Assembly (NCBI GenBank): GCA_900105225.1
Contig: LT629764.1
Span: 4,608,501-4,672,500 of the forward strand
Length of the DNA: 64,000 bases
Reading direction: 5' to 3'
From: Paenibacillaceae bacterium GAS479
Lineage (GTDB): Bacteria; Bacillota; Bacilli; Paenibacillales; Paenibacillaceae
Part shown: positions 34,367-41,692 of the stretch, piece by piece
Position numbering within the stretch: position 1 is the first letter of the stretch
Layout of the letters: each line of letters opens with the position of its first letter
The notes under the pieces: model-generated
The model's input: the letters and a program-made list of their open reading frames with translations, nothing else
The model's database searches: none
Told to the model about the DNA's origin: nothing
Position numbers and translations under genes: made by a program

Positions 34367-36103
34367 TTAGCCGGTTGCAACGGCTACCCAGTGCCCTTTT
34401 TTAACTTCCACGAATTCGGAGTGTTCGAGCCCGTAGGGATCAGCTTTGGACGCTTCCTCATGCGGCACTAGCTTCTTCTGCGATTCAACCTTGGGATCGG
34501 GTACCGGGATAGCCGCTAGCAGCGACTTCGTATAGGCATGGATCGGGTTTGAGTAAAGCTCCTCGCTTTCGGCCAGCTCTACAATCTTCCCTTTGTACAT
34601 TACCGCCACGCGGTCGCTAATATGCTTCACCATCGATAGATCATGGGCGATGAAAAGGTACGTAAGACCAAGCCTTTGCTGAAGCTCCTCAAGCAGCTTC
34701 ACAATCTGGGCTTGAATCGAAACGTCGAGAGCGGACAACGGCTCGTCACAGACGATAAATTCCGGTTCCACGGCGAGCGTCCGCGCAATGCCGATCCGCT
34801 GGCGCTGGCCGCCGGAAAACTCATGCGGGTACCGCATGGCATGAGACGGGTCAAGGCCAACCATCTCAAGCAGTTCCTCGACACGTCTCTGACGATCCCG
34901 CTTGGAGCTCGTTATTCCATGGACATCAAGAGCCTCGCCGATAATATCAATGACGCGAAGTCTTGGATTCAGGGATGCGTACGGATCTTGGAAGATTATT
35001 CCCATATGCCGCCTCATCGTTTTCATCTCCGAGCGGTTTAATCGCTGAAGTGGTATCCCTTTGAAAAGGACTTCGCCGCCCGTCGCTTCATTTAAGCGGA
35101 GAATCGTGCGCCCGGTCGTCGACTTGCCGCTGCCCGATTCACCTACCACGCCGAGCGTTTCGCCTGCCTGGATATCAAAGCTGATATCATTAACCGCTTT
35201 AACAATCTGTCCTTTTCCCATATCAAAATACTGCTTCAAAGCACGAACCTGCAGCAGAGGCACGCCCTCTTCACGCTGAACGATCGAAGGTACGGGTTTT
35301 GCTTTTTTCTTCTCGTCCAAGCGCGGTAATGCGTTGAGCAGCTTAACGGTATATGGATGTTGCGGGTTTGCAAAAATTTGCTCCGTTGTTCCCGTCTCGA
35401 CGATTTCTCCTTCCTTCATCACGACGACGCGGTCACACATGCCGGCCACGACGCCGAGGTCATGCGTAATTAAAATAATGGAGGTACCTAGCTGCTTCTG
35501 TATATCCTTCATCTGATAAAGAATCTGTGCTTGTATGGTCACGTCAAGCGATGTTGTCGGCTCATCTGCGATAAGGAGCGAAGGCCGACACGCCAGCGCA
35601 ATGGCGATCATGACCCGCTGACGCATCCCGCCAGAGAATTCATGAGGATATTGATTATAGCGTGTTTCGCTGTTGGGAATGCCTACGAGCTTCAGCATCT
35701 CAATGGCTTCCGTGCGGGCTTGCTTCTTGTCCAGCTTGCGATGCTTAATCAAGCTTTCTTCAATTTGGTTGCCGATTCTCATCGTAGGATTAAGGGAGGA
35801 CATGGGATCTTGAAAGATCATCCCGATATCCCTTCCGCGTATGGCTTCCATTTCTTTGTCGGTTTTAAAGGCAAGGTTTTGGCCTTGAAAAAGCACCTCT
35901 CCGTTTTTCACCATGGAAGGAGGAGAGGGCAGCAACCTCATAATCGTACGTGCGGTAACGCTTTTGCCGCTGCCGGATTCACCTACGATTCCCAGCGTCT
36001 CGCCTTTATGGACTTCAAAGCTGACATGGCGAACAGCTTCTATTTCTTTGTCACGGGTGAAAAAAGAAACCGATAGATCGTTAACTTGTAATAATGTATC
36101 CAT
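34367..36103 (-). CDS. fused double ATPase of an Opp/Dpp-like ABC transporter
   Basis: A 578-residue protein with two complete ABC ATPase units, equivalent to separate OppD and OppF. Each has its own Walker A (GESGSGKS), the signature FSGGMRQRV or FSGGQRQRI, and a Walker B (LLIADEPT and FIVCDEPL). The second unit starts near residue 300. It should power the divergently encoded permeases at 36.2-39.2 kb. I use ATG 36103, where the family-like [11 protein letters not shown] begins, with AGGTG upstream; an in-frame ATG at 36142 with AAGGA is equally possible (591 residues). A 9-bp inverted repeat lies in the divergent promoter region. Confidence 0.92.
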
Positions 36104-36142
36104 GTATGCACCTGCAATTCTGTCGTTTTCCGATATTGACAT

Positions 36143-36183
36143 ATTCCGATCCTTAAAATAAAATTTACTATACTGATCGGAAT
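36143..36183. promoter_or_regulatory. 9-bp perfect inverted repeat in the divergent transporter promoter region
   Basis: ATTCCGATC (36143-36151) and GATCGGAAT (36175-36183) are separated by 23 bp, so each divergent gene has the same GATCGGAAT in its own reading direction. The spacer contains TATACT (36169-36174, possible plus-strand -10) and on the minus strand TTGAAT-17-TAAATT (36185-36190 and 36162-36167) could be the ATPase promoter. One regulator could therefore control both operons. Confidence 0.55.
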
Positions 36184-36225
36184 AATTCAATTTAAAATTA
36201 TTAGGATGAAAGGAAGCGGACTAGC

Positions 36226-37668
36226 TTGAAAGGGCATGCAACTGCAACGGGTAATGGCTTTGTTGATCCTATTGCCGCCATCTACCGCAAAATGTTATTA
36301 CATCCGGCCTACAGTCTGCTTATATTGCTGTTAGGAGCACCCGTATCCGTCATCGTGTATGTTGTTCATCAATATCGCAAATCCAAATATGGCTACAAAG
36401 TCATCGCAGAGGAGACGAGGAACAAGCTGCTTGCAACCGGGTACCGGGACAAGCTGCTGCTGGAGGCTAAGGAGCAGCTTATTCGTAAGCATCGTTTCTT
36501 CGGGCAAACGGTCAGCACAGGGCAGACCGAACTGGAAGCGAATCGGATGGCTGAGATCAAATTCAATGAAACGTTCAACCATGAGCTGGAGAAACGGCTT
36601 GCCGGCGAGAACGGGCTGAAGTTTTCGTTTGGCGACACGTATCATGTGCTAGCCTTGAATCCTGTCTTTTTTACATTATCATTAATTATCGGTTTTCCCA
36701 TGTACTTACTGTTGGCAATCTATTCGATGCCATACTTGAAATACGTTGCCGAACGAATGGTGATGTCTTTATTCGTTATTTTGGGAGTCTCCTTTCTCGT
36801 TTTTACGATCCTATATATATCGCCGATGAACCCTGCGGCTAACTTATTAGGAGAAACAGCGACCGCTGAGCAAATCGCGGCGTTCAACCATCTTTATGGT
36901 TTGGATCAACCCTATCTAGTCCAGCTATGGGACACGATCAGAGGCATATTTACTTTTGATCTCGGCAAGTCTTTCGCAGGCAACGAGAATGTTACTGCAG
37001 CCATCGCGAATAAATTCCCGGTGACGCTAACGTTAACGGCTATCTCGACGCTGATTGCTGTATTGATCGCTCTGCCAATCGGCATTATTTCGGCTACAAG
37101 ACCAAATTCCTTTTTTGATTATACCTTTATGTTCATCGCTTTGCTGGGATTATCAATCCCGAATTTCTGGCAGGCTCTTATTTTTATTTTGAATTTTTCG
37201 ATTAAGCTACCCTGGTTGCCCGCAACGTATAACCCTGAGAACTGGCTGTCCGCGATTATGCCGATCGTCGTTCTAGGTACGGGCCTAACGGCTGCTGTAG
37301 CTCGAATGACCCGTTCATCAACGCTGGAGGTCATCCACGAGGATTACATTACAACTGCAAGGGCAAAAGGGCTTGCCCGAAAAACGGTCATATGGAAGCA
37401 TGGCGTAGGTAACGCGCTTATCCCAATTATTACGGTCATCGGCCTGCAGTTTGGCGGAATGCTCGGCGGAGCGGCGGTTACAGAGAAAGTATTCAATATT
37501 AGCGGTATAGGCAGTTATATCGTAGATAAGCAGTTCATTCCTGACATTCCTAGCGTGATGGGCGGGGTCGTTTATACTGCTATTATCATCTCGATCGTGA
37601 ACGTTATCGTCGATTTGATGTACGCGTTTTTTGATCCTAGAATCCGTTCGAAAATGAAACAATACTAA
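36226..37668 (+). CDS. OppB/DppB-like permease with ~170-residue N-terminal extension
   Basis: A 480-residue permease. The canonical OppB core starts near residue 171 ([20 protein letters not shown]), and contains the GLDQPY, DLGKSF and EAA-type motif ARAKGL. Before it lies an extra part: one membrane span at about residues 28-48, a charged cytoplasmic segment of about 95 residues rich in Lys, Glu and Asn, and a second span at about 148-168. Usual OppB proteins are near 310-330 residues. The start is TTG 36226 with AGGA about 12 bases upstream. It is divergent from the fused ATPase gene and followed by the second permease. Confidence 0.88.
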
Positions 37669-37682
37669 AGCAGGTGCTACTT

Positions 37683-39191
37683 TTGACGAATTCTACTATC
37701 AGTAAGCAAGAAGTCAGATTCAGGCTTAAATCAAACCAGGAATACAGTCAGGCGAGCTTCGCTGGCATCGTATCCTTAGCGCTGGGTTTTGTTCTTCTGC
37801 TAAACAGTTATGTTCCCGGAGACGGGTCATTTAAGCCGGCAGTACTTATTGCAAGCATTGCCTATTTTGTCTTCGCGCTGCTTGAGCTGGCGGTATGGGC
37901 GCTCATTCGCAACGATCTTATCCGTACTGGCGCCATTAAACGTTCTACAAGGATGCTTGGTTATGTATTGCTGTTAAGTATTCTAACCGCTAACGTATTC
38001 GTGGCAACCACGGCGTTTCAGCTTATCAAGCAGAAAAAAAGTGCGGCGTACACACTAGCCGTTTATTCGCTGCTTACGACAGTGCTCGTATTCGCGGTGT
38101 CAGCCCTCAACCTGTTTAAGCCTTATGTAGCTAACGGATTTGTAATCGGCATGCTTTTGCTGATCGTTGCCGCAATTCTGCAGCTCGCCGCATTGCTTCT
38201 AGTTGCCAAGCATGCAGATAAAGCAGTTATGCCACGCTGGATGGGACTCATTGCCGGCATCCTTATTTTAACTTCGGTGTCTGGCAACTTGTTCGCCTTA
38301 TTTCTTGGGTTATTGCTGATTGCCAAGCTGCGGGACAAAGGTTATTCATCCGGTTCCAAGCTGGGGGAAGTCGTGGAGCGGCTGTCGAGAAGCTCGACTT
38401 CTATGTTGGGACTGCTCTTTATCCTATTCCTGCTCACGTTGTCCATAACCAGTTACCTCACTTTTGATTACGGGTTTGCGATTGAGAACAACTACAGCTT
38501 GATTCTTCAATCTCCTGAGCTGGCCTATCCGCTAGGAACGGATAATTTCGGTAGAGATCTGTTCTCGCGTATTGTCTTTGGCGCGCGCATCTCATTGGCC
38601 GTTGGCCTATTGTCAACACTCATACCTGTTCTGATCGGGGGCGTGCTGGGTGCAGTGTCCGGTTATTATGGGCGGCATACAGACAACATTATTATGAGAA
38701 TGCTCGATATCCTCTATGCGATTCCGGGCATTCTTCTAGCGATTGCCATTATTGCGGCATTCGGCGCAAGTACGGTCAATTTAATTTTGGCACTCAGCGT
38801 AGGTGCGATACCCACTTATGCACGGACGATGAGAGCCAATGTCATGCTCGTATCCACCTTGGAATATGTTCAGGCTGCTAGAGCTTTCGGCTCCAGTGAC
38901 CGGACTATTTTGTTCAAGCATATCGTACCGAACTCCATCGCGCCGATGATTGTAAAATCTACGCTGACAATTGGCACCGTTGTTATCTCGACCAGCAGCT
39001 TGAGCTACTTGGGTCTCGGTGTAGAGCCTCATATTCCGGAGTGGGGCAATATTTTAAAGCTCGGAAGCGCCTATCTCGAGACGCATGCCTTTACGGCTGT
39101 TTATCCGGGACTTGCGATTATCGCGCTTGTGCTTTCCTTCAACTTCCTTGGAGACGGTTTGCGCGATGCGCTTGATCCAAAGCTGGATTAA
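37683..39191 (+). CDS. OppC/DppC-like permease with ~230-residue multi-span N-terminal extension
   Basis: A 502-residue permease. The canonical OppC core begins near residue 235 with [17 protein letters not shown], then [15 protein letters not shown] and the EAA-type loop [12 protein letters not shown]. The first 230 residues add about six or seven hydrophobic spans that ordinary OppC proteins (about 300 residues) lack. The start is TTG 37683 with GCAGGTG upstream; a GTG at 37674 is in frame but overlaps that site. It follows the first permease by 14 bp. Confidence 0.87.
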
Positions 39192-39308: not shown

Positions 39309-41135
39309 ATGAAGAACAAAGGCAAATTTGCCGCATTGTTGCTAGTTATTTTTTCGATTATGCTTAGCGCCTGCCAATTAACAACTAAGAAAGACGTGAA
39401 GGAATCACCTGCACCAACACAAGAGACTGTCGTTGACAGTAATCCTGTTGACATCGAACTGCTTGGCATGAGCTCGAACGAGGCTGACCTTAACATCGTT
39501 CGCGACCAGCTTACTAAAAACGGATTTAAAGTTAAATTGAACATACAGGCCGATTATGGCAGCTACAAATCACAGCAGGATGCGGGCAATTTTGATATCG
39601 CTTTGTCCAGCTGGACTACCGTTACGGGCAATCCCGACTACGCGGTACGCTCGCTCTTCAAAACTGGCGGAGACTACAGCATCCTTGCTGATCCAGAAAT
39701 CGATAAGTTGATTGATGCTGCCGGTGCTCAAACACCAGAACAGTACACGGAAACCTACAAGCAATTTGAGCAGCAGCTCGTCTTCGATAAGGCTTATATC
39801 GCTCCTTTATACAACTCACTGAAAGCACAGGCTTTGAATCAGGACGTACTGAACAAGGACTCTGTCCGAATCTCGAAGTCCCGTTCCCTTCCTTGGGAAG
39901 ACGTTGATTTTAAAGATACTTCAAAGCGCGCAAAAGATCCGCTAGTACTCCAGTCGACTATGCCGACGCTGACGTCGCTTGATCCGATCAAAGGCAACGA
40001 CGGCTCTATCAATATTATCAATACCAATATGTACGTTCGGTTAGTGAATTTGACAGATGACGATAAAATCACCTCGGAAGGTTCCCTATCTTTAAATCAT
40101 GCCATTGCCGAAGGCAATTCTGATTATTACTTTATCCTAAGAGATGATATCAACTTTGCCCAAATCAAAAACAAACTCGCGGCAGATACAGGCGAACGCG
40201 TTGGCGCTGACGATGTGATCTTCTCGCTGAACCGCGCGAAGGACAAAAACTCGGTGCCTGACCACCGCACATTCACTCTCCACGAGCATATCAAAAATGT
40301 AGAGCTGGTAACGGATGCCGCAGCACTGGAAGCTGTTAAGCTCTCCGGTGGCAGCGACACTGTGAAATCCGCACTTGAGCAAGGCCTTGGAACAAAAATT
40401 TCCGAGCTCGTATCCGATAAGAAGCAAGCGAACAATAAAGAGGGCAAATACCAAGTCGTTAAGCTTACGACGACTGAGCCTTTTCCTCAAGTGCTGAACT
40501 ATTTGGCTCACCAATCGGCAGGTATTGTGTCCAAGAAACAAGTAGAGAGCATCAATACGTACGACGTAGCTAAATTCGATGTGAACAAAGATATTCCTTA
40601 TGGCGACCAAAATACGGTCACGGAAGGCAACGCGTATAACAATACACTATATACAAGCGGTCCTTACATCCTGTCCTCCAAAAACGATTACGAGGCGACT
40701 TTCTACAAAAACCCTGCTTATATGACAGGCACGGAAAATGAGCCGAATATCGCTAATATTAAGATCCGCTTCATTAAGGACGCAGACAGCAGCTTGTCCG
40801 CGCTTCGTAGTGGTGAGATTCATCTCTACTACGGCGTATCGGAGACGAAATTCGACGTCGTGAAGGGCGACAGCAAGCTTGCGCTTCAAACGGTACAGAG
40901 CAACGCTGTTTCATACTTGCTCTTCAATACGAAAAACCGCCCAGTCGCGGAAAGCGCAGACCTGCGGAAAGCTGTTCTTTACTCCATCAACCAGGATGAA
41001 ATCTTGGCTTTCTACAAAGGCAACAAGTTCAAAGCCTTCTCTACGCTTAGCCCGCTTGTTAATACAGGTCTAGAGCTGAAAGCCGATCCGGCGAAAGCGA
41101 AAGAATTCCTAAACGCCTACAAAGCGAGCGAGTAA
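39309..41135 (+). CDS. substrate-binding lipoprotein, SBP_bac_5 fold in circularly permuted order
   Basis: A 608-residue lipoprotein: signal peptide with lipobox LSAC, lipidated Cys22. The sequence matches peptide-binding proteins of the OppA class but with the halves swapped. Residues about 45-210 read like the usual C-terminal lobe (VDIELLGMSSNEADLNI, GFKVKLNIQADYGSY, DIALSSWT, then DPEIDKLIDAA and YIAPLYNS). Residues about 215-608 read like the usual N-terminal part (PTLTSLDPI, YYFILRDDINF, GADDVIFSLNRA, TSGPYILSS, FYKNPAYM, LLFNTKNRP, RKAVLYSINQDEI) and stop at AKAKEFLNAYKASE, exactly where normal members run on into the first part. It serves the permeases upstream. Confidence 0.85.
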   Translation: MKNKGKFAALLLVIFSIMLSACQLTTKKDVKESPAPTQETVVDSNPVDIELLGMSSNEADLNIVRDQLTKNGFKVKLNIQADYGSYKSQQDAGNFDIALSSWTTVTGNPDYAVRSLFKTGGDYSILADPEIDKLIDAAGAQTPEQYTETYKQFEQQLVFDKAYIAPLYNSLKAQALNQDVLNKDSVRISKSRSLPWEDVDFKDTSKRAKDPLVLQSTMPTLTSLDPIKGNDGSINIINTNMYVRLVNLTDDDKITSEGSLSLNHAIAEGNSDYYFILRDDINFAQIKNKLAADTGERVGADDVIFSLNRAKDKNSVPDHRTFTLHEHIKNVELVTDAAALEAVKLSGGSDTVKSALEQGLGTKISELVSDKKQANNKEGKYQVVKLTTTEPFPQVLNYLAHQSAGIVSKKQVESINTYDVAKFDVNKDIPYGDQNTVTEGNAYNNTLYTSGPYILSSKNDYEATFYKNPAYMTGTENEPNIANIKIRFIKDADSSLSALRSGEIHLYYGVSETKFDVVKGDSKLALQTVQSNAVSYLLFNTKNRPVAESADLRKAVLYSINQDEILAFYKGNKFKAFSTLSPLVNTGLELKADPAKAKEFLNAYKASE

Positions 41136-41236: not shown

Positions 41237-41692
41237 ATGGCTGACAAATTGAAGCCCGAAACGAAACTATCACAATGGGATGCCCTAATGTTGGAATCTC
41301 TGAAGGTATACGGTTGGTCCGATAGTGAGCTCATTAGTAGAGCTCAGGCTGGCAATCTGCCTACGGATGAAAGCAAGTTCCATTTCGAGTATGCTGCTTT
41401 AACCGACTTGGCGAATGAGGACGCAGAAACCTTTTCGCAAGCCGTAATGAGCGGTTACCAAATTAAGTACAACACGATTCGCGGCATCCACAGCTGGATT
41501 CTCGTTGCGCTGAAGCAAGAAGCGGAGCTTATTCTGGAGCCGGAGAACGAAGAAGTCATCGCCCATTTGTCTGAAGTTGATGCGCAGCGTTTAGCGTCCG
41601 TCCTTTCATTCGGATGGGGGATATCCCCTCATGAGGGAGCGCAGGACGCAAACGGAAGAGCCCCATATAGAGTGGCGCCTATTAGAGCATAA
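41237..41692 (+). CDS. 151-residue protein of unknown function beside the permuted-SBP transporter
   Basis: A soluble, acidic protein without signal peptide or membrane span. Mostly helical-looking: LSQWDALMLESLKVYGW, DLANEDAETFSQAV, GIHSWILVALKQEAELIL. It carries Trp and Tyr residues in likely conserved positions and ends in a flexible tail. AAAGGAGAG lies before ATG 41237. It is separated from the binding-protein gene by a hairpin and is followed by its own terminator. I do not recognise the family; position suggests a role with the transporter or its cargo, which is inference only. Confidence 0.65.
   Translation: MADKLKPETKLSQWDALMLESLKVYGWSDSELISRAQAGNLPTDESKFHFEYAALTDLANEDAETFSQAVMSGYQIKYNTIRGIHSWILVALKQEAELILEPENEEVIAHLSEVDAQRLASVLSFGWGISPHEGAQDANGRAPYRVAPIRA

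Follow-up and report, generated by a model that had tools for sequence, protein, structure and literature searches.

The window analysed here, a 64,000-nt stretch of the Paenibacillaceae bacterium GAS479 genome (contig LT629764.1, positions 4,608,501 to 4,672,500), contains an ATP-binding cassette (ABC) importer cassette whose substrate-binding lipoprotein carries the two parts of the SBP_bac_5 family (PF00496) in reversed order. The gene for this protein, which we call gisD-like after the glutathione import system GisABCD of Staphylococcus aureus, is composed as follows, with the grounds for each feature in brackets.

39309..41135, + strand: gisD-like gene encoding a circularly permuted SBP_bac_5 lipoprotein of 608 amino acids (aa) (open reading frame (ORF), Pfam, PDB sequence comparison, alignment of members)
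39309..39374, + strand: lipoprotein signal peptide with lipobox cysteine Cys22 (LSAC) (sequence; Cys22 invariant in 24 aligned members)
39444..39908, + strand: C-piece, residues 46-200, counterpart of the C-terminal region in normal-order OppA/DppA, roughly OppA 349-489 (Pfam, PDB sequences)
39909..39938, + strand: putative new junction from the old C terminus to the old N terminus, about residues 201-210 (Pfam and model; the model match to residue 1 of DppA, 1dpp_A, starts at residue 210)
39924..41126, + strand: N-piece, residues 206-606, counterpart of the N-terminal region in normal-order OppA/DppA, DppA 1-342 (Pfam, PDB sequences, model)

On the whole 608-aa protein, PF00496 matches with an E-value of 1.1e-40 (140.3 bits against a cut-off of 32.4) in two stretches: residues 57-122 cover profile positions 301-366 and residues 267-602 cover positions 13-274, so the end of the profile stands ahead of its beginning and the order is not colinear. 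Each half is also recognized when scanned alone, residues 1-209 on positions 301-366 (E 6.9e-8, at 32.4 bits exactly the family cut-off) and residues 210-608 on positions 13-274 (E 4.3e-33). Sequences of solved structures give the same picture, with the front of the protein matching the back of OppA, MppA, HbpA and DppA (residues 46-174 align with OppA 1b05 358-489) and stretches within residues 223-602 aligning with the front of the HbpA and DppA chains. Each part is present once, which makes this a permutation and not a repeat. The five other SBP_bac_5 genes found in the same genome each match the profile in one colinear stretch, leaving 39309-41135 as the only inverted one. The protein is therefore a permuted relative of the SBP_bac_5, or cluster C, binding proteins. 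This bears out a sequence-only reading of the locus, which had proposed a circularly permuted SBP_bac_5 fold from motifs that are all present, in the order it quoted, in the ORF on the + strand.

The predicted structure agrees with this assignment. The 41 best Foldseek matches of the full-length model (E ≤ 0.001) are all, by title, family-5 proteins of the peptide, nickel or oligosaccharide type, and OppA/DppA-type proteins share the predicted fold; the sequential method VIA-align matched the model mainly over residues 202-608. In the model, the cut falls between a helix (594-607) and a strand (47-53). It is thus predicted to lie inside the C-terminal lobe rather than at a domain boundary, where the sequence-only reading had placed it. 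The limits of the lobe used for this placement are those we take to hold for the family.

The reversed order is conserved across genera. Among fetched ORFs matching both piece models, the C-piece precedes the N-piece in 127, of which 98 are distinct over their last 560 aa, and no weak matches occur among these C-first ORFs; normal order was seen in 28 ORFs from 28 loci. Since the models were built from the GisD family, those 28 represent the ordinary relatives that they still detect, and some of the 28 are repeat retrievals of a single gene. In 90 of the 98 distinct sequences a strict lipobox pattern lies ahead of the C-piece, and six of the remaining eight, inspected by eye, each have a near variant. 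Full-length matches occur in 17 of 98 genomes of relatives (own genome included), and the permuted protein occupies one open frame in 29 of 348 genomes of the class; it was found in 4 of 398 genomes of the phylum (E ≤ 1e-60) and in 2 of 391 genomes of the class of Alkaliphilus, one of these being a fragment ending at a contig end. These samples overlap, and scoring was limited to three candidates per genome in the samples of 348, 398 and 391. A scan of named genomes added 54 loci with 60-99% identity, from Paenibacillus, the B. pumilus group, Lederbergia, Sporosarcina, Neobacillus, Cytobacillus, Lentibacillus, Alkaliphilus and others. The order is thus common to Paenibacillus, Bacillaceae relatives, a Staphylococcus-type genus and Alkaliphilus, in keeping with the earlier view that the gene shows no assembly fault. 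In the class of Alkaliphilus, a GisD-like fragment cut by a contig end (L095, genome G855; 50% identical over 224 aa) adjoins two complete, mutually similar peptidase-like genes, presumably of the M42 type.

The permuted gene stands in a cassette with the following neighbours.

34367..36190, - strand: gisA-like tandem ABC ATPase (OppD-OppF fused), divergently transcribed (ORF, relatives' alignments)
36226..37668, + strand: gisB-like permease of 480 aa, its core starting at residue 171 after about 170 aa of N-terminal extension (ORF, Pfam/NCBIfam)
37674..39191, + strand: gisC-like permease of 505 aa, with a BPD_transp_1 core at 322-504 and about 230 aa of N-terminal extension (ORF, Pfam/NCBIfam)
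41237..41692, + strand: small downstream ORF, 151 aa, with no Pfam or NCBIfam family (flanking-gene clustering, family scans)

Both permeases and the binding protein are present in all 54 named loci. The gisB-like permease measures 470-513 aa in all of them and the gisC-like permease 498-509 aa in 53, with 395 aa in the remaining one (L066). As the Pfam core starts at about residue 171 in the former and the OppC-type core at about 230 in the latter, both permeases have N-terminal extensions, which matched no NCBIfam family when scanned alone (36226-36735; 37674-38372). A profile of the gisB-like extension matched 5 of the 398 phylum genomes, namely the four with the permuted binding protein and one more (G368); by eye, the latter match is an unrelated 286-aa protein and was set aside. 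The tandem ATPase is divergent and upstream in 53 of the 54 loci, a contig end cutting L064 and two ORFs taking its place in L055; Alkaliphilus has two separate ATPase genes inside the operon. The true start of the gisA-like gene probably lies about 30 codons inside the ORF, near 36103, because the alignments of many relatives begin there. Only the four Gis genes and the 151-aa ORF recur in more than five loci in flanking-gene clustering, the other flanks being variable. Relatives of that ORF adjoin gisD in 34 of the 54 named loci, and the ORF, directly downstream of gisD, possibly belongs to the operon.

The same cassette was found by tblastn against plasmids in a record named Staphylococcus aureus (L103, NZ_CP077929.1), downstream of murQ, a phosphotransferase system (PTS) gene, a MurR/RpiR regulator and a type I restriction gene. 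We take this neighbourhood to be that of the published gisABCD-ggt. The gis copy in this record is a broken, inverted duplicate, probably an assembly artefact; the record itself is linear, labelled as a plasmid and resembles chromosomal DNA. Intact gisD frames of 594-630 aa were present in 11 of 84 genomes of the Staphylococcus-type genus, and one intact locus shares 97.9-98.3% DNA identity with the named S. aureus record over 5.1 kb. The intact S. aureus-like GisD is likewise reversed (residues 47-117 on profile 297-367 and 257-588 on 9-269), and its gene is followed by a G_glu_transpept gene. The GisD of the window is 38.5% identical to a Staphylococcus-type GisD (L127) over residues 6-602 (E 2e-148) and 40% identical to the named S. 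aureus fragment. The two systems further share the gene order, with a divergent tandem ATPase gene gisA ahead of gisB, gisC and gisD, and the combination of two N-terminally extended permeases with a permuted lipoprotein. By contrast, the gisC product, 505 aa in the window with its longer extension, measures 387-403 aa in five Staphylococcus-type loci.

In S. aureus, GisABCD, encoded by SAUSA300_0200-0204 with Ggt, imports glutathione (GSH) and glutathione disulfide (GSSG): mutants in each gis gene and in ggt grow poorly on GSSG, a deletion reduces GSSG uptake, and gisA is presumed to be divergent from gisBCD-ggt (PMC10355420). In the same account, import of GSH and GSSG is reported for S. aureus only, complete homologous systems are assigned to an S. 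aureus-related cluster, and nearly complete ones to a few bacilli; Gis-dependent growth at low GSH has also been described (PMC12510641). The requirement for GisD in S. aureus for normal growth on GSSG (PMC10355420), together with the conservation of the order across genera, supports the earlier view of the window gene as encoding an intact, functional permuted lipoprotein of the OppA class. The family placement stands, with glutathione, and not oligopeptides at large, as the likely ligand of a GisD-type protein.

A second permuted SBP_bac_5 group, with the same reversed order and a cut in the same loop, spans Alkaliphilus, Alphaproteobacteria and haloarchaea. It emerged from a Pfam scan of ten genomes as another inverted protein, of 551 aa, in Alkaliphilus peptidifermentans (L189:7425-9080), whose front piece places profile 289-366 at residues 42-122 and whose permeases measure 323 and 306 aa. 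Of 950 plasmid records matching it by tblastn (E ≤ 1e-20), 39 cover at least 80% of the protein in one place and the remainder cover less; the 39 include Nitratireductor (40%), Microvirga, Neorhizobium, Roseomonas, Ketogulonicigenium and many haloarchaea. Twelve plasmid members were fetched (L195-L206), giving 13 with the Alkaliphilus protein. In L195-L199, Pfam places the profile from position 2-5 onward at residues 245-280, reaching near the C terminus, and the front pieces of L195, L196, L198 and L199 scanned alone show profile positions between 268 and 366 no further in than residue 133 (L198 only weakly, at E 0.0023). Piece models made from these 13 proteins themselves found C before N in 13/13 members and in 12/12 chosen GisD proteins, and N before C in all 51 normal proteins picked by similarity to the Alkaliphilus protein (49 distinct), two of which have almost no C score. 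GisD scores low on these models (C 8-27 bits, N 28-45), whereas ordinary DppA/AppA-type proteins score far higher. By eye, GisD ends about ten residues earlier than the second group. Also unlike the Gis cassettes, both permeases are of ordinary length in five of the six second-group operons seen, one of 557 aa occurring in L195. No further second-group member was found in the class of Alkaliphilus among 255 genomes at E ≤ 1e-35, the other two matches (L193, L194) being normal-order proteins whose match starts only at residue 215 or 224. Second-group operons carry varied catabolic genes as annotated, for example M20 or M28 peptidases, creatininase and hydantoinase. In Maritalea, an annotated gamma-glutamylcyclotransferase family gene (L198:13482-13955) directly follows the permuted transporter, hinting at gamma-glutamyl substrates there too.

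Taken together, we consider it very likely that the window protein is the GisD of a GisABCD-type importer, circularly permuted from an ancestral family-5 gene; that it captures a glutathione-type ligand we hold to be somewhat more likely than not. That neighbouring binding-protein gene pieces were put in the wrong order by assembly or sequencing is suggested by the unusual circular order and by the broken, inverted gis duplicate in the plasmid-labelled S. aureus record, but the 98 distinct sequences of the same order, the single open frame in 29 of 348 class genomes and the conserved neighbours of the 54 named loci leave this explanation practically no room; it is already refuted by independent genomes. 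A fusion of halves from different binding-protein genes, in place of one permuted gene, would account for both pieces being very diverged and for the nearest normal-order relative not being resolved. We regard it as improbable, however, since each piece occurs exactly once, no large part is missing or doubled, and a second group has the same order and the same loop. Several observations do weigh against the preferred reading of a permuted, glutathione-capturing GisD. On the structural side, the model has low-confidence loops at 218-235 and 416-445, and the C-piece folded alone gave a predicted local distance difference test score (pLDDT) of 46, which is unusable, so the fold of this piece is drawn only from sequence homology and the full-length model.

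On the side of the ligand, ggt lies beside gisD in Staphylococcus (a ggt match in 19/19 Staphylococcus-type loci from 11 genomes), whereas the window cassette has no adjoining ggt, and none was found in the flanks of the 54 named loci (0/54, four with less than 1.5 kb of downstream sequence). We therefore file the cassette as GisABCD-type rather than GisABCD-Ggt. The window genome does hold two ggt-family genes (L150, L151), far from the cassette and one without an evident signal peptide; they are 28% identical to Staphylococcus-type Ggt, and because they are unlinked and diverged the ligand could differ from glutathione. The protein may thus bind an oligopeptide or another gamma-glutamyl peptide in Paenibacillus, a reading to which the 38-40% identity to Staphylococcus-type proteins and the peptidase-like genes beside the Clostridia fragment also lend weight, and to which we give a substantial minority share of the probability. 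Against it stand the features shared with GisABCD, from the gene order and the divergently placed fused ATPase to the extended permeases and the permuted protein, as well as the presence of the two ggt-family genes. By analogy with S. aureus, glutathione, GSSG or a close gamma-glutamyl peptide is the probable ligand.

Whether the reversed order arose once or twice is a question for the trees, which were built after removal of 8 of the 51 normal-order proteins (duplicates or near-duplicates, fragments and very divergent sequences). In the tree of either piece, a single branch separates each permuted group from the rest. A joint clade of GisD and the second group was not rejected by the approximately unbiased (AU) test (p = 0.725 for the N-piece, 0.388 for the C-piece and 0.317 for both), so one or two permutation events are both compatible with the data; for the N-piece, constraining the two groups to a joint clade gave a tree 12.7 log units better than that of the free search. 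We tentatively raise the possibility that family-5 proteins underwent at least two independent permutations at this one C-lobe loop, making it a hot spot, and that the Gis topology evolved with the extended permeases as a changed form of docking or tethering.

In the proposed origin, the old ends of an ancestral family-5 binding-protein gene would have been joined and a helix-strand loop within the C-terminal lobe opened to give the new ends, with the permuted chain still folding into the usual two-lobed clamp, as the homology of both pieces and the predicted model suggest. Following the S. aureus system, GisD would catch glutathione, GSSG or a close gamma-glutamyl peptide outside the cell, close as other cluster C proteins do, and pass the ligand on to GisBC, the pair of extended permeases, with the fused ATPase GisA powering the transfer. 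The permuted chain would put the lipid anchor next to the C-terminal rather than the N-terminal lobe. Lipid tethering as a general reason for permutation is weakened, because the front ends of second-group L195 and L198, by eye without a lipobox, suggest plain secreted proteins.

Natural permutation of an ABC-importer binding lipoprotein has a precedent in MglB-2 (Tp0684) of T. pallidum, for which the names 'Type Ic' and 'Cluster Bc' were proposed (PMC4990184). That protein has the glucose-binding type I, or cluster B, fold of an unrelated family, with front strands moved to the end. OppA, DppA and GsiB (PF00496, cluster C), by contrast, are homologous to both GisD pieces and match its predicted fold, with the pieces in the opposite order; the termini of GisD lie in the C-terminal lobe. 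By analogy, permuted SBP_bac_5 proteins would be 'cluster Cc'. The sequence-only reading knew of no described permuted peptide-binding protein; MglB-2 is a described permuted binding protein of a different fold class. For family 5, no permuted protein was found in the open-access literature among the matches listed, a weak negative drawn mainly from titles and the starts of abstracts. The stem 'permut' is absent from the main texts of PMC10355420 and PMC12510641, as is the word Paenibacillus from that of the former. A candidate precedent, PMC2588589, was discarded since 'SBP_bac_5' and 'circular permut' occur there in unrelated places.

Family models see permuted binding proteins as halves, since GisD scores far under every NCBIfam binding-protein cut-off compared, and its recognition as a permuted protein may account for the apparent dissimilarity of GisD to GsiB. 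GisABCD-type cassettes are now known outside the S. aureus-related group, to which complete GisABCD-Ggt systems had been assigned, and the two permuted groups, from both domains of life, offer natural material on how chain order relates to docking and transport.
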